A stretch of 52,127 nt of DNA, taken from positions 1 through 52,127 of the forward strand of contig CAKKRE010000077.1 of assembly GCA_919902505.1 (NCBI GenBank), in the 5' to 3' direction. A program made the position numbers and the translations under genes. The notes under the pieces are model-generated. The model was given only the letters and a program-made list of their open reading frames with translations, had not been told where the DNA came from and did not search any database. Numbering within the stretch: the stretch's first letter is position 1; every line of letters starts with the position of its first letter. Of the stretch, positions 2,876-35,181 are shown in pieces. The DNA comes from Nitrospiraceae bacterium. Its GTDB lineage: Bacteria > Nitrospirota > Nitrospiria > Nitrospirales > Nitrospiraceae.

Positions 2876-4165
2876 ATGGGAATGACGCTGGCGGAGAAAA
2901 TTCTTGCCCGCGCGTCGGGGCGTTCCTCCGTGAAGCCCGGGGATGTCGTCGAACCGCAAGTTGATCTGGCGATGTCGCATGAGAATGCGGCACTCGTCAT
3001 CAACCAGTTCCACGAGATCTGGAAGGGAACAGGGAAGGAGGCCAGGGTATGGGATCCGGAGAGGATCGCCATTATCTTCGACCACCGCGTTCCCGCAGAG
3101 AGCGCGAAGACCGCGACCAATCAGAAGACGGTCCGCGAATTCGTCAAGGCGAAAGGCATCCAAAAGTTTCACGATATCCGCGGTGATCGGGGAGGCATCT
3201 GCCATCAGGTTCTTGCGGAATCGGGGTATGTGCGCCCGGGCTATGTCGTCGCCGGCACCGACAGCCACACGACCACTCACGGAGCCTTCGGGGCCTTCGC
3301 ATGGGGGATCGGCGCAACCGAGATGGCCAGCGTCTGGGCGTTGGGCGCGGCACTGGCCGTCGAGGTTCCTTCGACCATCAAGGTCACCGTGCGCGGTTCT
3401 TTCCTCGACTACGTGTCGCCCAAAGACCTGATCCTCTTCATTATCAAACTGCTCACCGCCGAGGGCGCCAATTTTAAGGCGCTTGAGTTCCACGGGGAGG
3501 CCATACGGGCGATGCCGACCTCAGGTCGCATGGTCTTGTGCAACATGGCGGCCGAAGCCGGAGCGACGGTGGGGTTGGTTCCGCCGGATGAGGAGACGAC
3601 CGCCTATCTTCACGATACCGCGAAGGTGAGCGAGCGTATCGATCTCCTCTCCCCCGACGCGGACGCGGTCTATGATCGCACGATCGAGATCGATCTTTCG
3701 GAACTGACGTTCCAGGTGAGCTGCCCGCACTCCGTCGATGCCGTGAAATGCGTCGGCGATATCGAGGGGAAGGCCATCCATCAGATCGTTCTCGGTTCCT
3801 GCACCAACGGGCGGTTGGACGACATCGCGGTCGCTGCGGGGATTCTTCGTGGAAAGAGGGTTGCCGACGGCGTGCGGATGCTCGTGTTTCCCGCATCGGC
3901 GAAAGTGTACCAAGAGGCGATGGAACGCGGTTATCTCGGCATCCTTGCGAAAGCCGGGGCTGTCGTGATGAACCCCGGGTGCGGACCGTGTCTCGGGGTG
4001 CATCAGGGTGCCTTGGGCGACGGGGAGGTCGCGCTCTCGACGACGAATCGGAACTTCAAAGGGCGTATGGGAAACCCGAATTCCGAAGTGTATCTCTGCT
4101 CGCCGGCCGTCGCTGCCGCAAGCGCCATCACGGGCGTCATTACGATGCCGGGAAGGAAGGTCTGA
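2876..4165 (+). CDS. Aconitase-family dehydratase large subunit (LeuC/homoaconitase type)
   Basis: 429 residues, the normal length for the two-subunit LeuC/HacA class. The [4Fe-4S] ligands are Cys309 in LGSCTNGR and Cys369 and Cys372 in NPGCGPCLG, and the conserved GTDSHTTTHGAFGA is at 127-140. The enzyme dehydrates and rehydrates a 2- or 3-hydroxy acid (isopropylmalate, homocitrate, citrate or dimethylmalate) and needs a separate small subunit, which here is the N-terminal domain of the next gene. AGGAGAG precedes the ATG. The stop overlaps the next start (TGATG), so the two subunits are translationally coupled. No leucine or lysine biosynthesis genes are adjacent. With the lyase upstream, a non-leucine substrate is plausible. 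Confidence 0.87.
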   Translation: MGMTLAEKILARASGRSSVKPGDVVEPQVDLAMSHENAALVINQFHEIWKGTGKEARVWDPERIAIIFDHRVPAESAKTATNQKTVREFVKAKGIQKFHDIRGDRGGICHQVLAESGYVRPGYVVAGTDSHTTTHGAFGAFAWGIGATEMASVWALGAALAVEVPSTIKVTVRGSFLDYVSPKDLILFIIKLLTAEGANFKALEFHGEAIRAMPTSGRMVLCNMAAEAGATVGLVPPDEETTAYLHDTAKVSERIDLLSPDADAVYDRTIEIDLSELTFQVSCPHSVDAVKCVGDIEGKAIHQIVLGSCTNGRLDDIAVAAGILRGKRVADGVRMLVFPASAKVYQEAMERGYLGILAKAGAVVMNPGCGPCLGVHQGALGDGEVALSTTNRNFKGRMGNPNSEVYLCSPAVAAASAITGVITMPGRKV

Positions 4166-5835
4166 TGAGCACGAAACAAGTGGTCCTGAAGCTTGGGGAC
4201 GATGTGTCAACGGACGTCATTTATCCCGGGCGGTTTATGGCCACGATCCTTCCAGCCGAAACGCCGCAGCATGCGTTCGCCGACGATACTGACTTTCACT
4301 CGCGGCTGACAGGCGGCATGATCCCAAAGGAGCGCGCCGTGATTCTTGCGGGGAACAATTTCGGGTGCGGGTCCTCGCGCGAACAGGCGGTCTCGTGTCT
4401 CCAAGGGCACAAGCTGACAGTCGTGGCCAAGAGTGTGGCGAGAATCTTCCTGAAGAACGCAATCAATCTCGGCCTTCCGGTCGTGATCTGTCCCACGATT
4501 GGGGCGAATGACGGCGATGATCTCGATATCCACGAGACCAAGGTGGTGAATGTCTCGACGGGACGGGAGTACGCCACGCAACCGCTTCCCGAAGCGCAGA
4601 AAGCGATCATGGAGGCAGGGGGGCTTATTGCCTTCACGCGCGACCGTCTCATGAAAGGTTCCGCGAAGCCCCGGAGGTCGAAATACCGCATCGGCTGGCT
4701 TCCGGGAGACGGCATCGGAACAGAAGTCTGCGATGCCGCGCGCCGCGTCTTGGATGCCATCGGATTTGAGGCGGAGTATCCGCACGGCGATATCGGCTGG
4801 GAATGTTGGCGTGCGGAAGGCGATGCCCTTCCGGAACGTACCATTGAGCTGCTCAAGAACGTCGATGCGGCGCTGTTCGGGGCGATCACCTCGAAGCCCG
4901 TGAAGGCGGCGGAGGCGGAACTCTCTCCCGGACTCAAGGGGAAAGGACTCGTCTATCGCTCGCCGATCGTCAGGATGCGGCAGCTTTTCGACCTCTACGT
5001 CTGTCTTCGCCCCTGCAAGGCGTATCCCGGGAATCCAGGCAACTACAAGGATGGGATCGACCTGACGGTCTTTCGCGAGAACACCGAGGACCTGTACGCG
5101 GGCGTGGAATTCTCGCCCGTGCCCGATGAACTCTCGACCGTGCTTGCGAAGCATTCAAAGAACTTCGCTCCGTTCAAGGATCTTTCGGGAGATGCCTACG
5201 CGATCTCCTGCAAGATCAACACGAAGAAAGGGTCGGAACGGATCGCGCGCGCTGCGTTCGCACACGCGCGCATGCACAAGCGCAAGAAGGTGACGGCCGT
5301 CGACAAGGCGAACGTCGTCCGCGCGACCGACGGGCTGTTCCTCGAGATGGCGCAGGCCGTCGCGAAGGAGTATCCCGAGATTGTGTTCGACAACGCGAAC
5401 ATCGACGCGATCTGCATGTGGCTCCTGAAGAATCCCCTCAACTTCGATGTGCTCGTGGCGCCTAACCTTTACGGTGATATCATCTCGGACCTCTGCGCCC
5501 AGATGGTGGGAGGTTTGGGATTCGCCTGCTCCGGGAACATCGGGGAGAGGCTTGCGGTCTTCGAGCCGACGCACGGCTCGGCCCCGAAGTACGCGGGGAT
5601 GAATAAGGTGAATCCCATCGCGACCATCCTTGCCGCGAAGATGATGCTTGAGTGGCTGGGCGAGACGCAAAAGGCCGCCGATATCGAGGGCGCAGTCGCG
5701 AAGGTCATTCGCGAAGGGGTGGTCCGCACCTATGACATGGGCGGGGCCGCGCCGACGACCGACATGGCGGAGGCCGTTGTCCGAGCCCTTGCGGAGCGCC
5801 CAAGGGGTCAGCAACCTTGTCGGAAGGGTTCCTGA
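4165..5835 (+). CDS. Fusion: aconitase-family small subunit (LeuD type) + isocitrate/homoisocitrate-type dehydrogenase
   Basis: One uninterrupted frame of 556 residues. Residues 1-166 are a LeuD/HacB-like swivel domain with GCGSSRE at 67-73. The substrate-loop region reads PGRFMAT, unlike the PGRYL- pattern I recall for isopropylmalate and homoaconitate enzymes. Residues 173-545 are a decarboxylating dehydrogenase: LPGDGIG at 179-185, SPIVRMR at 266-272, LYVCLRP, FRENTEDLYAG, catalytic Lys381 in DKANV, and metal Asp438/Asp442 in YGDIISD. SPIV resembles homoisocitrate dehydrogenases, whereas YVCLRP resembles isocitrate dehydrogenase. HGSAPKYAG carries the Lys-Tyr pair linked to NADP use in E. 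coli Icd. The start overlaps the large-subunit stop. The last nine residues are encoded by a REP-like hairpin, so the original C-terminus was probably replaced. Confidence 0.85.
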   Translation: MSTKQVVLKLGDDVSTDVIYPGRFMATILPAETPQHAFADDTDFHSRLTGGMIPKERAVILAGNNFGCGSSREQAVSCLQGHKLTVVAKSVARIFLKNAINLGLPVVICPTIGANDGDDLDIHETKVVNVSTGREYATQPLPEAQKAIMEAGGLIAFTRDRLMKGSAKPRRSKYRIGWLPGDGIGTEVCDAARRVLDAIGFEAEYPHGDIGWECWRAEGDALPERTIELLKNVDAALFGAITSKPVKAAEAELSPGLKGKGLVYRSPIVRMRQLFDLYVCLRPCKAYPGNPGNYKDGIDLTVFRENTEDLYAGVEFSPVPDELSTVLAKHSKNFAPFKDLSGDAYAISCKINTKKGSERIARAAFAHARMHKRKKVTAVDKANVVRATDGLFLEMAQAVAKEYPEIVFDNANIDAICMWLLKNPLNFDVLVAPNLYGDIISDLCAQMVGGLGFACSGNIGERLAVFEPTHGSAPKYAGMNKVNPIATILAAKMMLEWLGETQKAADIEGAVAKVIREGVVRTYDMGGAAPTTDMAEAVVRALAERPRGQQPCRKGS

Positions 5836-6311: not shown

Positions 6312-7376
6312 ATGCTGACGATCGACGGATCCCGCTATTCCGGCAGCGGAACCATTGTAAGACAAGCAGTCGCCTTTGCTGCTCTGACCGGCCAGTCGAT
6401 CCACGTGGTCAAGGCCCGCGCGAAGCGAGACAAGCCGGGTTTACGCCCACAGCACATCCGCGTCATCGAAGCGATTGCCGAACTCGTACAGGGTCGCGCT
6501 GAGGGACTGGCGCCAGGTGCGCAGGAATTCACGTTCCGCCCTGGCCCTCTCAAGATAGGGCGGCACTATTGTTGGGACATCGGCTCTGCCGGCTCGACGA
6601 CCATGCTGGGCCTGGGCCTCATGCCGGTCCTTGCCTTCGCGGCCTCGCGGGTCACCGTCGAATTGCGCGGGAGCCTCTTTCAGGATTTTGCCCCTTCTGT
6701 CTTTCATCTCCAGCAGGTGTTGCTCCCCATGCTGCAAGGGATGGGACTCCATGTCGAAGTAGAAATCGAACGGCCGGGCTACGTGCCTCGCGGCGATGGC
6801 ATACTCCGCCTCGCGGTGACACCGCTCACCGAACCCTTCCGAGCGATCACCGCCGACAGGCCAGGCCCGGTCACAAGGATTTGGGGCATCGCCCTGTCCT
6901 CTCACCTCGAACAACGGCAGGTCAGCCGGCGGATGGCGGACGCCGCGCGAGATGCGCTGGCCATAGCGGGCTATCGAGCTGACATTGAACTTCGCAACGA
7001 TACCGAGTCTCTGCAGCGTGGAGCCGCGCTGGCGCTCTTTGCCGATCGAGAAGGAGCCGGGCGACTCGGCGTGGACCGGGCAGGAGCACCGAGAAGAAGC
7101 GCCGAGTCGATCGGGAAACAGGCCGCCAGGCAGTTGCTGGAGGACCTCCGGTCCGGTGCGACTCTGGACCGGTTTGCCGCAGACCAGATCATACCTTTTG
7201 CGGCTCTGGCAGTGGGCAAAAGCCGGTTCATCATTCCGACCGTCACCGATCATGTTCTCACCAGCGCCTGGCTGACACAGGAATTCCTTCACGCTCACGT
7301 CACTATCGACGACCAGCGACTGGTCATTCACGGTGCCGGATTCTGGCCTGATCGTGGTCGCACGACGACTAAGTAG
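6312..7376 (+). CDS. rtcA: RNA 3'-terminal phosphate cyclase
   Basis: 354 residues, the normal length for RtcA. The sequence shows IDGSRYSGSGTIVRQAVAFA at the start, KPGLRPQHIRVIEA, the hinge WDIGSAGSTTML at about residue 90, RPGYVPRGDG, and the C-terminal TDHVLTSAWL containing the adenylated histidine (about residue 313). RtcA uses ATP to turn an RNA 3'-phosphate into a 2',3'-cyclic phosphate through a covalent His-AMP intermediate. The N-terminal glycine-rich loop is SRYSGSGT rather than the common GEGGGQ form, a mild deviation. It heads a compact run: the Mut7-C gene begins 12 bases after its stop. RtcB and archease lie 27 kb away in the same window. Confidence 0.88.
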   Translation: MLTIDGSRYSGSGTIVRQAVAFAALTGQSIHVVKARAKRDKPGLRPQHIRVIEAIAELVQGRAEGLAPGAQEFTFRPGPLKIGRHYCWDIGSAGSTTMLGLGLMPVLAFAASRVTVELRGSLFQDFAPSVFHLQQVLLPMLQGMGLHVEVEIERPGYVPRGDGILRLAVTPLTEPFRAITADRPGPVTRIWGIALSSHLEQRQVSRRMADAARDALAIAGYRADIELRNDTESLQRGAALALFADREGAGRLGVDRAGAPRRSAESIGKQAARQLLEDLRSGATLDRFAADQIIPFAALAVGKSRFIIPTVTDHVLTSAWLTQEFLHAHVTIDDQRLVIHGAGFWPDRGRTTTK

Positions 7377-17712: not shown

Positions 17713-19049
17713 ACGACATCCTACCGGCCACCGATCTCTACCGCGCAGAACTTTTACAATTCGAGCGAGACGTCGGCGGGAGCGCACCAGTCTGGGTGCA
17801 GCAGCTCCGCCAAGCTGCGATGGCCCGCTTCACCGAGATGGGATTCCCGACGACTCAAGAGGAAGCGTGGCGGCACACCAGCGTGGCCTCGCTGTCGGAG
17901 CGTCCCTTTCCATTGGCAAGACACCGATGTGCCATACCGAAAACAGAGCTGGAGCCGGTGACGTCCTGGATGGGAGCAGGCTGCCGGCTGGTCTTCGTGA
18001 ACGGCTTGTTCTCGCCGCTCCTCTCCTCGCTGCTGCCTCTGCCGCACGGCATGAGCGCAGGCAGCTTAGCCGGCGCCCTTGGTGGCGAGTCGGGCCTTCT
18101 GGAATCCCATCTGGGCCGGTATGCTCGCATTGAAAACCATCCCTTCGTCTCCCTCAATACCGCATTCCTCAGCGATGGGGCCATAGTGTGCATCCCTCCC
18201 GACACGGTGATCGAGGAGCCGCTGAATGTGTTGTTCGTCTCCCGTCCAAATGGGAGAGCGACGATGTCCCACCCCCGAACCGTCATCGTGGCAGGCCCCA
18301 ACAGTCGCGCCACAATCGTCGAGAGTTACCTCGGACTGCCGGAGGACCTCTATCTCACCAACGCCGTGACCGAAGTCGTGCTTGCTGAGAATGCTGTCCT
18401 CGATCACTATGTGCTCCAGCAAGAAAGTTCGGCGGCGTTTCACTTCTTGACCCTTGCCGTCCATCAGGATCGCCACAGCACCTTCACCTCTCACTCCCTT
18501 GCGACCGGCGGCGCGCTCGCGCGGAGCGAGATCCATTGCGAGCTGGCAGACGAAGGAATCACCTGCATTCTCCGCGGGGTGGGCGCCGTCGCCGGACGAC
18601 AGCATCTGGACATGCAAACACAGATCGACCATGCGAAGACGCATGGCACGAGCCAGCAGCTGTACAAGGGCATCCTGGGCGGGCATGCGAGCGGAGTGTT
18701 CAACGGGAAGATTCTGGTGCGGCAGGATGCGCAGAAGACCGATGCCCGGCAAACCAACAACAACCTCTTGCTCTCCGAGGATGCGGTGATTCACACGAAG
18801 CCGCAGCTCGAGATCTTTGCCGATGACGTGAAGTGCGCTCACGGAGCGACCGTCGGGCGGCTTGACGAAGAAGCGGTGTTTTACCTCCGCTCCCGGGGTA
18901 TCGGAGTGGAGACCGCGCGGAGCCTGATGACCTATGCGTTCGGGAGCGAAACGATCAACCTCGTGACGAACGAGGTGATTCGAGATCGGCTCGCGGAGCT
19001 GCTGGCTCAATGGATTGCACAGACCTGCGGTCGGAGTTTTTCCCTATGA
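17709..19049 (+). CDS. sufD: SufD scaffold subunit
   Basis: 446 residues, homologous in its C-terminal half to SufB: the LDMQTQIDHAKTHGTSQQLY block, NGKILVRQDAQKTDARQ, NNNLLLSEDAVIHTKPQLEI and FADDVKCAHGATVGRLDEEA are SufD hallmarks. Its conserved histidine region (KCAHGATVG) is the likely cluster-forming site with SufB. It is coupled at both ends by four-base ATGA overlaps with sufC and sufS. Confidence 0.96.
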
Positions 19050-20311
19050 GACCAAGCCAGGGCAATGGGCCCAACCAGCGATCGCCACGTTCCCCCCTGG
19101 ACGTGAGCAGGACCAGGGAGGATTTTCCAATCCTCAAGCAACTGGTTCGCGGCAAGCCGCTGGTCTACCTCGACAACGCAGCCTCCGCTCAGAAGCCGCA
19201 GGCGGTGATCGATGCGCTCAGCCATTTCTACTCAACAAATTATGCCAACGTTCACCGCGGCATCCACTGGCTCAGCGAACGAGCGACAGAAACGTTCGAG
19301 GCCGCCCGCCGGTCGGTGCAACGATTCATCGGCGCAGCAGAGGCGAACGAGATCATCTTTGTCCGAGGCACGACCGAAGCCATCAACCTGGTCGCGCAGA
19401 CCTACGGCAGGACGCACGTGCAGGCCGGCGATGAAATCCTCATCTCCACGATGGAACACCACTCCAACATCGTGCCCTGGCAGATGCTCTGCCAAGCGAC
19501 GGGCGCGGTTCTGCGGGTCGCGCCGATCAACGATGAGGGCGAGCTGCTGCTCGATGAATTCGAGAAACTCCTGCATCCACGAACAAAATTGGTCGCGATT
19601 GCCCATGTGTCGAACGTGCTCGGCACCATCAATCCCATCCGGAAAATCGTCGAGATCGCCCACCGCCACCAGGTGCCGGTACTCGTCGATGGCGCCCAGG
19701 CCGCGCCGCATGTGGCGCTGGATGTGCAAGCGCTCGACTGCGACTTCTATGCGTTTTCCGGCCACAAACTGTTTGGACCGACCGGCGTCGGCGTCCTGTA
19801 CGGCAAGGCGTCTCTGCTCGAGGCCATGCCTCCCTATCAAGGAGGAGGCCACATGATTCAATCGGTCACGTTCGAGAAGACCATCTACAACAAAGTGCCG
19901 GACAGGTTTGAGGCTGGAACACCAAACATCGCGGGGGTCGTCGGCCTTGGTGTAGCGATCGATTACGTGAGCGAGATTGGCCTGGAGGCAATCACAGCCT
20001 ACGAGCGGGAACTCTTGGCCTATGCGATGGATCAGCTGTCCAGGATCTCAGGCCTGCGGCTCATCGGGACGGCCAAAGAAAAGGCGGGAGTGCTCTCCTT
20101 CGTCGCCGACGAAGTACACCCTCACGATCTGGGAACCATACTGGACAATGAAGGAATCGCCATCAGGGCCGGACACCACTGCGCTCAACCACTGATGAGC
20201 CGCTTTGGCGTACTGGCCACAGCCCGAGCATCCCTCGCCTTCTACAACACAAGGGAAGAAATCGACGCGCTCACAACGGGCATTCGCACAGCCATCGAGT
20301 TTTTTACATGA
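19046..20311 (+). CDS. sufS: Cysteine desulfurase SufS
   Basis: 421 residues of the class V aminotransferase fold. The PLP lysine lies in FSGHKLFGPTG (about residue 240) and the persulfide-forming cysteine in RAGHHCAQP (about 379). TMEHHSNIVPWQ is the usual PLP-binding segment. It strips sulfur from cysteine and passes it to SufU. I choose ATG 19046 because it overlaps the sufD stop (ATGA). An in-frame ATG at 19010 would put 12 codons inside sufD. Confidence 0.95.
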   Translation: MRPSQGNGPNQRSPRSPLDVSRTREDFPILKQLVRGKPLVYLDNAASAQKPQAVIDALSHFYSTNYANVHRGIHWLSERATETFEAARRSVQRFIGAAEANEIIFVRGTTEAINLVAQTYGRTHVQAGDEILISTMEHHSNIVPWQMLCQATGAVLRVAPINDEGELLLDEFEKLLHPRTKLVAIAHVSNVLGTINPIRKIVEIAHRHQVPVLVDGAQAAPHVALDVQALDCDFYAFSGHKLFGPTGVGVLYGKASLLEAMPPYQGGGHMIQSVTFEKTIYNKVPDRFEAGTPNIAGVVGLGVAIDYVSEIGLEAITAYERELLAYAMDQLSRISGLRLIGTAKEKAGVLSFVADEVHPHDLGTILDNEGIAIRAGHHCAQPLMSRFGVLATARASLAFYNTREEIDALTTGIRTAIEFFT

Positions 20312-21984: not shown

Positions 21985-24807
21985 TCATTGGCTGTCCGGC
22001 TCGCCACAGTGGCGCAAAATATGAGCGCGGGCGGCATCGCGCAGCAGTACCGCTGCGGCAAAGGCGTCGCGCGCCTCTGCAACGGGCAGCAACGGAGCCC
22101 CGAACGTGATTGTGATCGCGCCGCGCCGTGGCCACCATTGGCCGTCACGCAGAATGGACCGGGTGCCGCAGATCGCCACCGGCACAACCGGGATGCCCGT
22201 GTTGGCTGCCACAACAAAGGCCCCCATCCGGAATGGCTTCAACCCGGGCAAACGGGTAAACGTGCCCTCGGGGAAGAAGACCAACGCACGTCCGGCGCGC
22301 AGCGCGACCTCCAGCCGCCGAGCATCCTGCACACTCTCGTGGGCTGCGAAGCGTTCAACGAACTCCGCGCCCAAGCGCTGGAGATAGACGCGCGGAATGA
22401 ATTGCTCAAGCAATTCGCGCTTGGCCACGAAGCCAAACTGTTCTGGCAGCGCCGCCACCAGGACGAAACCGTCGAGGTAGCTGGCGTGATTGACCACCAG
22501 CACACAAGGCGTACCGCGCGGCAGATACTCCATCCCGCTCACCGTGAATGGCGTTCCGGTCAGCCGAATTAACAGCCGTGCACCGACCCGGCCGACTGCC
22601 CAGGCCCAGGAAGGGCGCGGGGTGAAGATGGTGACCAGCCAGACAACTGGCACCACCAGGCAGAACACCAACCAGGCCCACGCTGCAAAAAAAACATCCG
22701 CTGCCCTTGCCGCCCAGCGTTGCAACTGGGGAATCAATGCACCCGCGGCAAGGCTGGCTACCTGCCACCACCCGACACGCCTGTGCTCGCCGGCCAATCC
22801 CGCCTCGAACAACGCTCGCGGGGCGGCGCGGCGCAACTTGCCGCTGGAAGTCTTTAGTACGGTACGGGGCGGTGCAAGCGCAACTTGGTCAGCAGGCTCG
22901 CCCAGTACCTCGACGACTGCAGCGTTGATCACCTCGCGCAGTTGATGGCGTTCACGCTGGCCGCTCTCGCGTGTTTCAGCGAGGACCACCAGCCGCTCGG
23001 TGCCCGAGGCCGGGTCGGGGCTGCCGAAGACGACAACGCAGCCCTTTCTCACCCCCGGTATCTCGCCAACGGCCTCCTCTACTTCGTGGGGGTAGATGTT
23101 GCGCCCGCCCCGAATGACGATGTCCTTGACCCGCCCCGTGAGAAAAACTTCGCCGTCGGCGATGTACCCACGATCACCGCTGTCAAGCCAACCGTCACGG
23201 AACAGCTGTGACGTGGCCTGGGGATTGTTGAAATAGCCGCGCGTGGCCGACGCCCCCCTGAACTCCAGTCGGCCCTCTTGCCGCTCACCCAGCTCATTAC
23301 CGGATGCATCCACGATCCGCAATTCGTGGCCGGGCAACGGCCGCCCGCAGGAGACAAAACATAGCGGAGAGGCATTTTCGGGAGCGGCGGGGACAGCGCT
23401 GCCGGTACGCGTGAAGGATTCTCGCTGGACACGATCGATGAGGAGGCCGCGGCCGGATGGCGGAAATGCCAGTCCCACGGAACACTCGGCCAGCCCATAT
23501 ACCGGCGTGAGTGCCTCGGAGTGGAAGCCGTACTGAGCGAACCGCCTGCCAAAACGCGTCAGTGTCTCCGGCAATACCGTTTCCGCGCCGTTGAATGCCA
23601 GCCGCCACGAACTGAGATCAAGTCCGGCCAGCTCCTCGTCGCCGATCTTCTTGACACACAGTTCATAGGCAAAGTTGGGTGCCGCCGAGAGTGTACCGCG
23701 GTAAGCATGGATTGCCTGCAGCCAGCGAACGGGCCGGGCGAGGAAGGCAAGAGGCGACATGACTGCCAGTGGAATGCCGAAGTAGAGCGTACCCAGCCAA
23801 GCGCCGATCAGCCCCATATCGTGGTAGAGAGGCAGCCAGCTCACGAAGACATCATCGGGGCGGAGGCCGATCGCCTGCCCCATGGCACGGATGTTGGCAA
23901 GCAAATTGGCATGGGTGAGCACCACGCCCTTGGGATCGCCCGTGCTGCCGGAGGTGTACTGGATAAAGGCCACATCCTGCGCAGCCACCGGCACCCGGGT
24001 CAGGCACTCTCGTGACTGCAGCAGTTCCTGTGCGCTCACCACCTTACGCAGGCAAGGCACATGAACTTGCAGCAGCCATGCCACGGCTCGCGCTTCAGGT
24101 ATCGTGACCAGCAGGACGGCTCGCGCGTTGCACAAGATGCCGACATGGCGGCGTACGTGTTCTTCCACTTGGGCCAAGTGTGCAGGTGGATAAATGGGCA
24201 CGGGAATACCGCCGGCAAGCAGGATGCCCAAATAGACAGGGAAATACTCCGGACAGGTCGGCAACATGACGGCCACTGATTGTCCCGCTTCAAGCCCACG
24301 GTGTTGCAGACCTGCGGCTACCCGTTCAGATGCCTGCGCCAGATCGCGACAGGTGATGGGCTGTTCGCCACTTTCGCTGATATAAATGACCTGGATGCGG
24401 TCTGGTTGCCGGTGCACATGCCAGTCGATCACTTCAAGCAAGGTAGTGGCATCGACAGCTTCGCCTTGCGCAGGTTCCAAAGTTGGCACGGACTGTATCG
24501 ACGCACGACGTGCTGATCCGCGTGCCCCCCTGTGCAGGGCCTCGAGCAGGTCGCGGGGAGTTTCGGCGCGAACCAGCGTGTCCTCCGGCAGATCAACGCC
24601 GAAAGCACGATGGATACGCAACATCAGTTCCACCCGCGCCAAGCTGTCGAACCCGAGATCGCGATCCAGCGAGCTGTCCAGGGTGATGCGCCTGTCATGT
24701 CCGGTTTGCCGGTGAAGTTCAGCGAACAGTGTGCGAACGATGTCGAGAAGCTCGGACGCAGGGTCGGGATCCGGCCTTGTTTCAGTCTGCCCGTGCGATG
24801 TCTTCAC
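21985..24807 (-). CDS. Three-domain ACP - fatty-acyl-AMP ligase - PlsC acyltransferase
   Basis: 940 residues in one frame. An acyl-carrier domain carries the phosphopantetheine serine at Ser55 (LGFDSLARVEL). Residues about 120-690 are an adenylate-forming ligase with YTSGSTGDPKG at 284-294 and YHDMGLIG at 328-335, the latter typical of fatty-acyl-AMP ligases. After a hydrophobic anchor (about 715-740) comes a PlsC-type acyltransferase with NHASYLD from 773 and FPEGT near 845. It could adenylate a fatty acid, load it on its own carrier and transfer it to a glycerol- or lyso-phosphate-type acceptor at the membrane. The start is a GTG preceded by GGAGAGAGG. It lies 34 bases after the acyl-CoA ligase gene, on the same strand. 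Confidence 0.88.
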   Translation of the reverse strand: MKTSHGQTETRPDPDPASELLDIVRTLFAELHRQTGHDRRITLDSSLDRDLGFDSLARVELMLRIHRAFGVDLPEDTLVRAETPRDLLEALHRGARGSARRASIQSVPTLEPAQGEAVDATTLLEVIDWHVHRQPDRIQVIYISESGEQPITCRDLAQASERVAAGLQHRGLEAGQSVAVMLPTCPEYFPVYLGILLAGGIPVPIYPPAHLAQVEEHVRRHVGILCNARAVLLVTIPEARAVAWLLQVHVPCLRKVVSAQELLQSRECLTRVPVAAQDVAFIQYTSGSTGDPKGVVLTHANLLANIRAMGQAIGLRPDDVFVSWLPLYHDMGLIGAWLGTLYFGIPLAVMSPLAFLARPVRWLQAIHAYRGTLSAAPNFAYELCVKKIGDEELAGLDLSSWRLAFNGAETVLPETLTRFGRRFAQYGFHSEALTPVYGLAECSVGLAFPPSGRGLLIDRVQRESFTRTGSAVPAAPENASPLCFVSCGRPLPGHELRIVDASGNELGERQEGRLEFRGASATRGYFNNPQATSQLFRDGWLDSGDRGYIADGEVFLTGRVKDIVIRGGRNIYPHEVEEAVGEIPGVRKGCVVVFGSPDPASGTERLVVLAETRESGQRERHQLREVINAAVVEVLGEPADQVALAPPRTVLKTSSGKLRRAAPRALFEAGLAGEHRRVGWWQVASLAAGALIPQLQRWAARAADVFFAAWAWLVFCLVVPVVWLVTIFTPRPSWAWAVGRVGARLLIRLTGTPFTVSGMEYLPRGTPCVLVVNHASYLDGFVLVAALPEQFGFVAKRELLEQFIPRVYLQRLGAEFVERFAAHESVQDARRLEVALRAGRALVFFPEGTFTRLPGLKPFRMGAFVVAANTGIPVVPVAICGTRSILRDGQWWPRRGAITITFGAPLLPVAEARDAFAAAVLLRDAARAHILRHCGEPDSQ

Positions 24808-24841
24808 TGCCTCTCTCCGGATGAATGGAATCTGTGCCGTT

Positions 24842-26692
24842 TCAAGCTGGGAGCATATGCCCGGAGTAAAGCTTGAGAATTTGTTCCGCGAAACGTTTCT
24901 CGATCGCAGGACGTTTCAGTTTGAGAGTGGGCGTGACAAGGTCGTTGTCGATGGTCCAAGGCTCTAGCATCAAACAAAAGCGACGTACCTTGGCATAATC
25001 GGGGAAGCTTGCCAGTGATTGGTGGCATATGTTCTCGATATGGTGCTGGAGACGCACATCGGCTAGCGCGGCGGAATCCTCAGCAGGCAACGACCATTTC
25101 TTGGCCACGGCACGCCAGGCCTCGGCGTTCAGCACCAAGAGCGCGGCCAGGTAAGGCTTGCCCTCGCCGACCACCATCGCCTGGTCGATAAGGGGGTTCA
25201 GAATGAGCGCCATCTCCACATCTTCGGGCGTGACTTTCTCCCCGGAGGACAGGGCAACGATCTCCTTGAGTCGCCCGACGATGAACACATATCCGTTTTC
25301 AATGCGTGCCTGGTCGCCCGTGTGCAACCAGCCCTCGGCATCGATCGCCGTGGCCGTATCCTCGGGCCGGTTCCAGTAGCCCATCATGACGTTGGGACCA
25401 CGCACCAGCAATTCATTCTTCTCACCGAGCCTGAGCTCAACCCCGGGAATGGGGACGCCAACCGACTCCGGCAGATTGTCTTCCGGTCGGTTGCTGGTAA
25501 CGACAGGTGCCGCTTCGGTCAGGCCGTAGCCCTGCACCAAGGGCAAACCCAAGCCGACAAAGCACCGGGAGAGCGTGACAGACAAGGGAGCACCTCCCGA
25601 CACCGCCAGCCGCAGCCGTCCGCCGAAATGAGCGAGAAATTTGTCGGCTACCAGGTAATGCAGCACTGGCCGCAACAAGCCGGCCCACCTGCCCGGAGCC
25701 TTGCCATGATGACGGATTGCCTGGAAATGCCTCCATCCAAGCTCCTGTGCCCAGTGGAACAGCGCACGCACCATGGCACACGTTTCCCCCAATTGATTCT
25801 GCAGCCGGGCGTACATGCGTTCATATATGCGTGGCACGGATACCAGAATGGTCGGGCGCACCGTAGCAATATCCTCGGCCAGCTTGTTGATCGCGCGTGC
25901 GTAGGCAACGCAACTGCCTGCCATCATCGGCAGGTAGAAGCCGACGGTACGCTCGAACGCGTGGGACAGCGGCAGAAAAGAAAGAAATAGATCATCCGGA
26001 TAAGCCTGCACGTGCCTGATTACTGCTTGTGCATTTGAAAGAATATTGAAATGCGACAGCATGACGCCTTTCGGGCGGCCCGTGGTGCCCGACGTGTAGA
26101 CGATGGTGGCCAACGCGTGTGTGTCCTTGGCCAGATTGACCTGGGGGCGTGCCTCGGAGGGCAACCACTGCTTGATGAAGCTGACCTGAATGCCGGTGTC
26201 TGGTACGGGGGTAAGCGGCATCTCCAGGCACAGCACGTGAGACAGTAGCGGGAATCGTGTGCGTTGCCCGGCCAATGCGATCCATTGACCGATGTGGCCG
26301 ACCAGCAAGAGGCGCGTTCCCGAATCGGCGAGGATGTAGCTAGTGTTATCCGCATGATCGGCAGTATAGAGAGGCACGACAGCCAGTCCCAGCGATTGTG
26401 CCGCCAGATCGAAACAGACCCATTCCACGCTGTTCTTGAGCAGCAGGGCGACGCGGTCTCCTGAAGCAAGATTTTCGCCGGCAAGCGTCAACTGCCAGCG
26501 GGCGACAAGCCCTTCCACTTCCCTCCAGGAATAACTGCGCCACACCTCAGCTTCACATTGCCGGTAGGCCTCGCGCTCCGGCGAGCGCTGGCACCTACAC
26601 CGCAACAATTCGGGCAGAGTAGCAACTTCGCCGGTGGTAATGCTGTCCGGAGAGAGGTGAACGGCAACGCGCTGCACGTTATTGCCTTGCAT
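24842..26692 (-). CDS. Long-chain fatty-acid--CoA ligase (AMP-forming)
   Basis: 616 residues, of the long-chain acyl-CoA synthetase group. The P-loop YTSGTTGRPKGVMLSH is followed by LPLSHAFERTVGFYLPMM, VQGYGLTEAAPV, WLHTGDQARIENGYVFIVGR and KEIVALSSGEKV. It activates free fatty acids to acyl-CoA at the membrane. It precedes the ACP-FAAL-PlsC gene by 34 bases on the same strand, so the pair gives both a CoA and a carrier-protein route for fatty acids. The ATG at 26692 has only a weak purine stretch ahead of it. A divergent GNAT-like gene starts 128 bases away. Confidence 0.92.
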   Translation of the reverse strand: MQGNNVQRVAVHLSPDSITTGEVATLPELLRCRCQRSPEREAYRQCEAEVWRSYSWREVEGLVARWQLTLAGENLASGDRVALLLKNSVEWVCFDLAAQSLGLAVVPLYTADHADNTSYILADSGTRLLLVGHIGQWIALAGQRTRFPLLSHVLCLEMPLTPVPDTGIQVSFIKQWLPSEARPQVNLAKDTHALATIVYTSGTTGRPKGVMLSHFNILSNAQAVIRHVQAYPDDLFLSFLPLSHAFERTVGFYLPMMAGSCVAYARAINKLAEDIATVRPTILVSVPRIYERMYARLQNQLGETCAMVRALFHWAQELGWRHFQAIRHHGKAPGRWAGLLRPVLHYLVADKFLAHFGGRLRLAVSGGAPLSVTLSRCFVGLGLPLVQGYGLTEAAPVVTSNRPEDNLPESVGVPIPGVELRLGEKNELLVRGPNVMMGYWNRPEDTATAIDAEGWLHTGDQARIENGYVFIVGRLKEIVALSSGEKVTPEDVEMALILNPLIDQAMVVGEGKPYLAALLVLNAEAWRAVAKKWSLPAEDSAALADVRLQHHIENICHQSLASFPDYAKVRRFCLMLEPWTIDNDLVTPTLKLKRPAIEKRFAEQILKLYSGHMLPA

Positions 26693-26820
26693 TTTTCTTG
26701 AAATGCCGAATACTGCCGCGTGACGGGACTTTTTCTGATTATTGGCAGGCCCTCTCCGGAAAACAAGTAGTAAAAGCAGGGTCTGTACGCTAGCCGTTTC
26801 TGTCGAGAATCAGGATTCAG

Positions 26821-27591
26821 ATGATGCGTGACCACCACAGTGACATCGTATGCATCGATAAATTGAGTGCGTGGGCACGAGCGAAGCTTGCGCAGGAGCT
26901 GTTTCGTCTGAACCAGAGAATCTTCGCCGGCGTGGAGCAGGAGGAGTTTGAGCACTTGGTGATCACACCGTCAGCCCGCTGGACCCGGATACAAGTCATC
27001 CGCAACAGCGACGGCGATGCAGTCGGCTACTGTGCCGTGCATTTGTTTGACATCGTGTTGTCTGGTCGTGTCTACGCCGTTTTCCGCGGGCAAGCGGGCA
27101 TTCTTCGCGCATATCGTGGTGAGGGATCAACCTTTGCCTTCGGTTTCCGGGAGGCGATTCGGTACAAATTGATGCATCCCCTCGAACGGGTATATTTTTT
27201 CTGCACCCCGATTCATCCATCAAGCTTTCACCTGCTGTCTAGACGGTTCCATGAGATCTACCCGAGCCATCGGAAACAGACTCCGCCCGCGATCCTGGCC
27301 TTGATGCACAAACTGGCTGATGTCTTCGGCGAACGCCGGGTGGATTCCAACGATCCCGATATACTGCAGGTGGGGTGGATCACGCTCGACAGCGCGGATG
27401 AGACCGCTTTCTGGCAGGCGAACAGCAACCCTGATATCCAGTTTTTCTTGAAAGTGAATCCAGGCTATCGGCAGGGACATGGTTTGCTCACCCTCGCCCC
27501 GCTCACGTTGGGGAACCTGTTGTCTACAGTGGTCGCGCTCGCGAAGAGAAAGCTGTTTGCTTTGCTGTCCCTCGATAATGGGAGGGGGTGA
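26821..27591 (+). CDS. GNAT-like N-acyltransferase fold protein, lipid-cassette associated
   Basis: 256 residues with no signal peptide. The region from about 55 to 115 (VIRNSDGDAVGYCAVHLFDI, then RAYRGEGSTFAFGFREAIRY) has the strand-loop-helix look of a GNAT acyl-CoA pocket, but the match is loose and I cannot name a subfamily. It is divergent from the two fatty-acid ligase genes across a 128-base gap, a layout that suggests a shared promoter region and a role in using activated acyl groups. The catalytic role is inferred from context only. Confidence 0.6.
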   Translation: MMRDHHSDIVCIDKLSAWARAKLAQELFRLNQRIFAGVEQEEFEHLVITPSARWTRIQVIRNSDGDAVGYCAVHLFDIVLSGRVYAVFRGQAGILRAYRGEGSTFAFGFREAIRYKLMHPLERVYFFCTPIHPSSFHLLSRRFHEIYPSHRKQTPPAILALMHKLADVFGERRVDSNDPDILQVGWITLDSADETAFWQANSNPDIQFFLKVNPGYRQGHGLLTLAPLTLGNLLSTVVALAKRKLFALLSLDNGRG

Positions 27592-33726: not shown

Positions 33727-35157
33727 CTATCCCTTGATGCATACCAGCGGCTCGAGCCTAGCCACCTTCTTGGCAAGATTCGCCTCATCCGCCGCATCCA
33801 CCACTTCGCTGACATCTTTGTAGGCGCCGGGCGCTTCTTCTGCCACTCCACGCATGGATGGGCTGCGGATCAGAATTCCGCGGGCGGCCAACTCCTTCAC
33901 CACGTCACGACCATGCCACTGCTTGAGCGCCTGATGCCGGCTCATGCTGCGACCGGCTCCGTGACAGGCGGACCCGAACGCAAGCGACATGCTCTCCTTC
34001 GTGCCCACCAGCACATACGAGGCCGTTCCCATCGTGCCGCCGATAAGAACCGGCTGCCCCACGCTTCGAAAGGACGGGGGAATATCGGGATGACCGGGAC
34101 CGAAGGCCCGCGTGGCCCCCTTGCGATGGACGAAGAGACGAGTCGGTGCCCCGTCGACGACATGCTCCTCGACTTTGCAGGTGTTATGCGAGACGTCGTA
34201 GAGCAACGAGAGTGTGGCCTGTGGCAACAGGTCGGCGAACACCTGCCTGACAAGATGTGTGACGATCTGCCGGTTGGCGAGGGCGCAGTTGATCCCTGCT
34301 CGCATTGCGCCGAGATACTCCTGTCCTACCTCAGAATTGATCGGGGCGGACGCCAATTCGCGGTCCGGCAATTCGATGTGGTACCGGGCCGCGCTGATGG
34401 CCATGCGCTTGAGGAACTCTGTGCCGATTTGATGACCAAGCCCCCTGGAACCGCAATGAATGCTCACGACGAGGTCGCCTTCGCGAAATCCAAAGGCCGA
34501 CGCTGCGGCTGCATCGAAGACCTGCACGACCTGTTGCACTTCGAGGTAGTGGTTCCCGGAGCCGAGCGTCCCCATCTCATCCTGCTGGCGCTTCTTGGCG
34601 TAATCAGACACGCACTCCGGTTTCGCGCCGGCCATGCAGCCCTGCTCTTCGATGAACTCCAAATCCTCATGCGTCCCATAGCCTTTCCCCACCGCCCAAC
34701 GCGCGCCGCCGGCAAGCATGGCGTCCATCTCGTGCCGATCCAAGTGCACCTTCCCGGTACTCCCGACGCCGGCGGGAATGCGATGGAACAGGGCCTCGGC
34801 CAGTAGCTCTTTCACCGGTTGAAGATCCTCGACCGTGAGCCCCGTGCGAAGCGCTCGGACTCCGCAGGAAATATCGAAGCCCACGCCGCCGGCGGACACC
34901 ACCCCGCCGAGATCGGGATCGAAGGCGGCCACTCCGCCGATGGGAAACCCATAGCCCCAGTGGGCATCGGGCATCGCATAGGAGGCTCGGACGATGCCCG
35001 GCAGCGTGGCGACGTTGCTGACTTGTTCGTAGACCTTTTCATCCATGTCTCGAATCAGATCTTCGCTCGCATAGATCACCCCCGGCACCCGCATCTTGCC
35101 GTGGGGAGAAATATGCCATTCGTCAGGCCCTCGTCGTTTCAACTGGTTGAGATCCAT
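33727..35157 (-). CDS. rtcB: RNA-splicing ligase RtcB
   Basis: 476 residues from ATG 35157 (GAGG upstream). The Mn/GTP site is complete: GGVGFDISCGVR with Asp95 and Cys98, GSGNHYLE (His203), HCGSRGLGHQ (His234), YDVSHN (His324) and the guanylated His399 in ACHGAGRSMSR. RtcB joins RNA 2',3'-cyclic-phosphate or 3'-phosphate ends to 5'-OH ends using GTP. Its activator archease is encoded 24 bases upstream, so the pair forms one unit. RtcA is at 6312-7376. Confidence 0.95.
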   Translation of the reverse strand: MDLNQLKRRGPDEWHISPHGKMRVPGVIYASEDLIRDMDEKVYEQVSNVATLPGIVRASYAMPDAHWGYGFPIGGVAAFDPDLGGVVSAGGVGFDISCGVRALRTGLTVEDLQPVKELLAEALFHRIPAGVGSTGKVHLDRHEMDAMLAGGARWAVGKGYGTHEDLEFIEEQGCMAGAKPECVSDYAKKRQQDEMGTLGSGNHYLEVQQVVQVFDAAAASAFGFREGDLVVSIHCGSRGLGHQIGTEFLKRMAISAARYHIELPDRELASAPINSEVGQEYLGAMRAGINCALANRQIVTHLVRQVFADLLPQATLSLLYDVSHNTCKVEEHVVDGAPTRLFVHRKGATRAFGPGHPDIPPSFRSVGQPVLIGGTMGTASYVLVGTKESMSLAFGSACHGAGRSMSRHQALKQWHGRDVVKELAARGILIRSPSMRGVAEEAPGAYKDVSEVVDAADEANLAKKVARLEPLVCIKG

Positions 35158-35181
35158 CACTGCCTCATTTCTTAGTGCGAT

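Follow-up and report, generated by a model that had tools for sequence, protein, structure and literature searches.

The window analysed here is the whole 52,127-nucleotide stretch of contig C77 (CAKKRE010000077.1) in a 4.24 Mb Nitrospiraceae genome assembled in 84 contigs. It contains a gene (gene 1; positions 21985–24807, minus strand, GTG start) for a 940-residue protein in which an N-terminal acyl carrier protein (ACP) domain, a fatty acyl-AMP ligase (FAAL) domain and a PlsC-type acyltransferase domain follow one another in a single chain. We favour, as a somewhat probable interpretation, the assignment of this protein as an Aas-like, coenzyme A (CoA)-independent lysophospholipid acyltransferase for fatty-acid recycling with a built-in carrier, for which the adjacent acyl-CoA ligase is auxiliary and the divergent GNAT-like neighbour is dispensable. 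In the proposed pathway, a free fatty acid would be converted to acyl-AMP by the FAAL domain and loaded, presumably in cis, onto the phosphopantetheine of the protein's own ACP at Ser55. The carrier arm would then hand the acyl group, probably also in cis, to the membrane-anchored PlsC domain, where an ester would be formed with a lysoglycerolipid, a lysophospholipid being the likeliest acceptor. The neighbouring ligase may draw on this fatty-acid pool to supply CoA metabolism, and the GNAT-like protein would take no necessary part. The chemistry assigned to each step is taken by analogy from established families.

An initial annotation, made from the sequence alone, had described gene 1, an acyl-CoA ligase gene (24842–26692) and a GNAT-like gene (26821–27591) as a self-contained acyl transfer cassette, and all three open reading frames (ORFs) proved to be real at these coordinates. 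The domain chain that it had read in the 940-residue protein, with Ser55 as the carrier residue, is borne out by Pfam domains and by invariant motifs in an alignment of 55 sequences of ACP-FAAL-PlsC relatives, to which all conservation figures refer. The acyl carrier (PP-binding) domain occupies residues 31–91 (24535–24717, minus strand, as for all features of gene 1); Ser55, located in the phosphopantetheine-attachment DSL motif GFDSL (approximately 24643–24645), is invariant, and the phosphopantetheinyl transferase family has one match in the window's genome. The FAAL domain covers residues 119–672 (22792–24453), with Pfam matches to AMP-binding (residues 128–526, E 4e-71) and, weakly, to AMP-binding_C (575–657), and with an invariant A10 lysine, Lys657, in KTSSGK. 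A hydrophobic helix at residues ~705–730 (22618–22695; Kyte-Doolittle 2.4), the predicted membrane anchor, precedes the PlsC domain in 55 of the 55 aligned sequences and corresponds to helix 691–727 in the AlphaFold model of the protein, which has a predicted local distance difference test score (pLDDT) of 87.9 and a predicted template modelling score (pTM) of 0.79. The PlsC (PF01553) domain itself extends over residues 746–940 (21988–22572; Pfam match at 754–879, E 3.5e-25) and carries the HX4D motif with H774/D779, the FPEGT motif at 845–849, and R883; H774, D779, E847 and G848 are invariant, and T849 is present in 93% of the sequences. Gene 1 is under purifying selection and is not a chance ORF, since its ratio of nonsynonymous to synonymous substitution rates (dN/dS) is 0.19–0.26 against six relatives, all of which are full length and free of stops.

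By every available sequence test, the middle domain classifies as a genuine FAAL and not as a CoA ligase. Among curated models it scores best against PRK07768, PRK09192 (fatty acyl-AMP ligase) and the FadD FAAL models, and among solved structures the Escherichia coli FAAL (EcFAAL, 3PBK) comes closest, whether sequences (E 8e-91) or folds (Foldseek E 2e-53; TM 0.92 on the target) are compared. The CoA pocket of EcFAAL is described in PMC8460268 as blocked by W224, M231 and F279, with a FAAL-specific helix at T252–R258; the printed 3PBK chain numbering is that of the paper minus one. The three pocket residues align with W324, M331 and F379 of the 940-residue protein and the helix with residues 352–358 (PLAFLAR; 23734–23754), of which 352–357 are helical in the AlphaFold model, matching the FAAL-specific helix. 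Moreover, W324, M331, F379, P352, F355 and P359 are all invariant. The FAAL-specific insertion, whose absence the initial annotation had named beforehand as refuting this identity, is present: the alignment runs without gaps through the insertion region of 3PBK at residues ~446–490 (23338–23472).

The nearest working analogue of the 940-residue protein is Aas, a PlsC-plus-acyl-ACP-synthetase protein that works with LplT, a flippase of the major facilitator superfamily (MFS) (PMC11416262). Like Aas, the protein would combine ATP-dependent acyl-carrier loading and PlsC-type transfer in one chain, and an MFS gene, a possible partner, stands beside a few of its relatives. However, in E. coli Aas the PlsC domain comes before the ligase and the carrier is the free cellular ACP, whereas here the order is ACP-ligase-PlsC, the carrier is fused and the ligase is a FAAL. 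Judged by this architecture and by the score against the Aas model PRK08633 (189 bits, with a cut-off of 1221), the protein is not classed as an Aas member.

The ACP-FAAL-PlsC architecture is not unique to the window but represents a widespread, barely studied family. The architecture and neighbourhood search proposed in the initial annotation yielded at least 588 confirmed stretches in genome contigs, any relative of the query being counted and not just the full architecture; 80 loci were retained, nearly all of which span most of the protein at 47–62% identity, and near-full-length ORFs (>880 aa), usually solo genes, were obtained from 73 of them. The relatives are distributed among at least six phyla (Pseudomonadota, Thermodesulfobacteriota, Actinomycetota, Acidobacteriota, Tectimicrobiota and Nitrospirota). 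Gene 1 occurs in 3 of 29 genomes at the genus level, in 11 of 147 at the family level, and in 6 of 398 sampled Pseudomonadota. A single sentence in an eLife 2021 paper (PMC8460268) mentions fusions between FAAL-like domains and lysophospholipid acyltransferases, proposed as a recruitment independent of polyketide synthases (PKS) and nonribosomal peptide synthetases (NRPS), and our literature search on such fusions found nothing further. These fusions likewise join a FAAL-like domain to a lysophospholipid-acyltransferase-type domain; however, the main text of that paper gives no biochemistry, neighbourhood or ACP order for them. The didomain FAAL-ACP proteins of natural-product clusters (PMC11837247) also carry a FAAL and a carrier in one chain, but they pass the acyl group to a PKS or NRPS, whereas in the 940-residue protein the PlsC domain follows.

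Clustering of the neighbouring genes in the 80 loci, all from outside the window's bacterial family, revealed one coherent recurrent neighbour, an MFS gene present at L019, L064, L072, L080 and L083, which belong to five scattered lineages. The five MFS proteins show 49–69% mutual identity, and we take them to be of the UMF1 type by a motif in their sequence rather than by a match to a family model. Their genes are placed upstream or downstream of the gene 1 relative, on the same or the opposite strand. On a tree of 74 relatives the five MFS-adjacent loci need five changes, at least three of them forced by well-supported branches; thus the adjacency has been gained or lost repeatedly. A rough reckoning, which assumes one UMF1-type gene per 4000-gene genome, gives a chance expectation of ~0.04 such adjacencies in 80 loci. 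Two other neighbours were left out of the five, an MFS-looking protein at L079 without similarity to the other MFS proteins and a remoter MFS protein at L062 with only ~25% identity; the other large neighbour clusters were dismissed as shadow ORFs or common regulator domains. The adjacency of gene 1 and the MFS gene, which is new here, resembles by analogy the LplT-Aas pairing, although LplT partners Aas whereas the UMF1-like gene recurs beside only 5–6 of ~80 loci. We put forward, as a tentative extension that may well prove wrong, that the family could constitute a second, independently evolved lysolipid-recycling machine, in which a FAAL was recruited from secondary metabolism, the carrier was taken on board and, in several lineages, a UMF1-type MFS protein serves as lipid flippase, convergent with LplT-Aas.

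Several observations weigh against the assignment of an Aas-like recycling function. The window's genome encodes, on contig C76, an Aas-type protein that fuses LplT, PlsC and ligase parts, and therefore a second system would be either redundant or different in substrate or acceptor, and the 940-residue protein is not simply an Aas replacement in this genome. The patchy spread in both the family and the Pseudomonadota is unlike that of core lipid recycling. In addition, a UMF1 homologue was not found in the window's genome, which is a weak negative, and no MFS gene of this type stands beside the window's gene 1. Finally, no feature of the sequence fixes the acceptor lipid.

The PlsC domain resembles the 1-acyl-sn-glycerol-3-phosphate acyltransferase TmPlsC (PDB 5KYM), its only solved match, in the HX4D and FPEGT motifs and in the overall PF01553 domain; however, TmPlsC stands alone without ligase or carrier, whereas the domain studied here is fused to both. 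Among NCBIfam models, the domain scores highest against 1-acylglycerol-3-phosphate O-acyltransferase (82 bits, under the cut-off of 103), followed by models for Aas-type fusions (64 bits) and then lyso-ornithine-lipid acyltransferases (50 bits), and since all three match, the sequence leaves the acceptor undecided. The top-ranked model and the TmPlsC match would suit de novo phosphatidic acid synthesis from exogenous or recycled fatty acids, with the PlsC domain acylating 1-acyl-glycerol-3-phosphate and thereby skirting CoA and the free ACP pool. We regard this alternative as rather unlikely: the same fold is matched by Aas and OlsA domains, the patchy distribution suits an accessory route over a core step, and plsX, plsY and plsB do not recur among the neighbour clusters of the 80 loci.

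Gene 2 (24842–26692, minus strand; 616 aa) is located 34 bases upstream of gene 1 on the same strand. As the initial annotation had stated, it encodes an ordinary acyl-CoA ligase, a long-chain fatty acyl-CoA ligase (FACL) with Pfam AMP-binding and AMP-binding_C_3 domains; its dN/dS is 0.28–0.32. The pair of genes is kept in six genomes of the window's bacterial family (G000, G025, G156, G190, G243 and G780) and probably also in G019 and G292, where it is split over contig ends. In several pair-bearing genomes the aligned block stops near the pair and the surrounding window is unaligned, which suggests that the pair moves as one unit. Gene 2 is in fragments beside an intact gene 1 in G234 (L140), and in G738 a 50% relative has no gene 2 with it. 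No companions of the gene 2 or gene 3 type were found beside the gene 1 relatives in the 80 loci outside the family, the gene 2 matches there being the FAAL domain itself or, in a few loci, more distant ligases. The proposed cassette thus stands in part, in that the ligase is a frequent, lineage-restricted partner within the window's family; as a general three-gene unit it is ruled out by the absence of both companions in the outside loci, by the degraded gene 2 of G234 and by a gene 3 that is mostly absent or broken.

Gene 3 (26821–27591, plus strand; 256 aa) is a divergently oriented, optional neighbour, for which the name GNAT-like is a plausible but weak label, because only one of seven members of its family reaches the GNAT model PF13527 (E 7e-4). 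The protein itself has no Pfam or NCBIfam match, including none to the OlsB family, and no match in a profile search of PDB or in viral contigs; plasmids contain one remote, unannotated match, and its single-sequence AlphaFold fold is uninformative (pLDDT 34). Of the family genomes examined, just three (G000, G019 and G156) have gene 3; in the latter two it is frame-broken, possibly through sequencing error, while gene 1 is intact, and it is absent beside gene 1 in G025, G190, G243 and G780. In G597, a member of Pseudomonadota, homologues of gene 2 (44%) and gene 3 (40%) overlap each other at L128 8448–11088, and ACP-FAAL-PlsC had no match at the threshold used; gene 3 is therefore linked to the ligase, and the operon is a possible two-gene acyl-CoA ligase/N-acyltransferase unit. 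In Variovorax sp. CF079 (L115 1483–2967), a protein of the gene 3 family carries a cyclic-nucleotide-binding domain fused at its C-terminus, an arrangement that suggests acyl transfer regulated by cyclic nucleotides.

Nothing points specifically to the unusual product envisaged in the initial annotation, such as a lipoamino acid, although it is possible, given the solo relatives, the lack of recurrent lipoamino-acid genes in the neighbour clusters of the 80 loci, and the best model of the PlsC domain. A related alternative is an unusual two-chain aminolipid, for which the ligase would supply acyl-CoA, the GNAT-like protein would use it to N-acylate an amine, and the second chain would come from the PlsC domain, by comparison with OlsB and OlsA in ornithine lipid formation. 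The lyso-ornithine matches of the PlsC domain and the overlapping genes of G597, which extend the link beyond the window's family, speak for this scheme, but gene 3 is missing or broken where gene 1 is intact, G597 has the other two genes without a detected ACP-FAAL-PlsC gene, and the OlsB family is not matched; we therefore judge it improbable. Fatty-acid loading for an unlinked PKS or NRPS, with the PlsC domain vestigial or off-loading, is very improbable: FAALs do usually serve PKS/NRPS according to PMC8460268, and a large protein with FAAL-like and further adenylation domains is encoded on contig C10, but this candidate FAAL-NRPS already has a FAAL-like domain of its own, no variation is seen in the PlsC motifs across the 55 sequences, and PKS/NRPS genes are not recurrent neighbours in the 80 loci. 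The initial annotation had likewise seen no such synthase, and none is encoded among the adjacent ORFs; a PKS/NRPS-independent role in membrane lipids is supported.

The three genes are flanked by a functionally unrelated SUF Fe-S operon (sufD, sufS and sufU-like), in which the best model for SufS (19010–20311, plus strand) is the family 2A encapsulin cysteine desulfurase cargo (706 bits, cut-off 800). Elsewhere in the window, a PEP-mutase/isocitrate-lyase-family gene (1943–2866) lies ahead of a region (2876–5835, plus strand) that encodes a LeuC-like aconitase large subunit (429 aa) and then a fusion of an aconitase small-subunit/LeuD-like domain with an isocitrate/isopropylmalate dehydrogenase domain. 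The S-adenosylmethionine synthetase of this bacterial genome (11498–12706, minus strand) matches PF01941, which we take to cover the archaeal-type enzyme. The RNA 3'-phosphate cyclase RtcA (6312–7376, plus strand) and the RNA ligase RtcB (33727–35160, minus strand) occur in the same window, far apart.

FAALs are known almost exclusively for supplying fatty acids to polyketide and lipopeptide assembly. If the Aas-like recycling function holds, at least six phyla would possess a direct route from free fatty acids to membrane lipids outside the CoA and free-ACP pools, carried by a conserved FAAL that rejects CoA and is joined in one chain to a carrier and a glycerolipid acyltransferase, and the recurrent MFS neighbour would provide a concrete transporter candidate for it.

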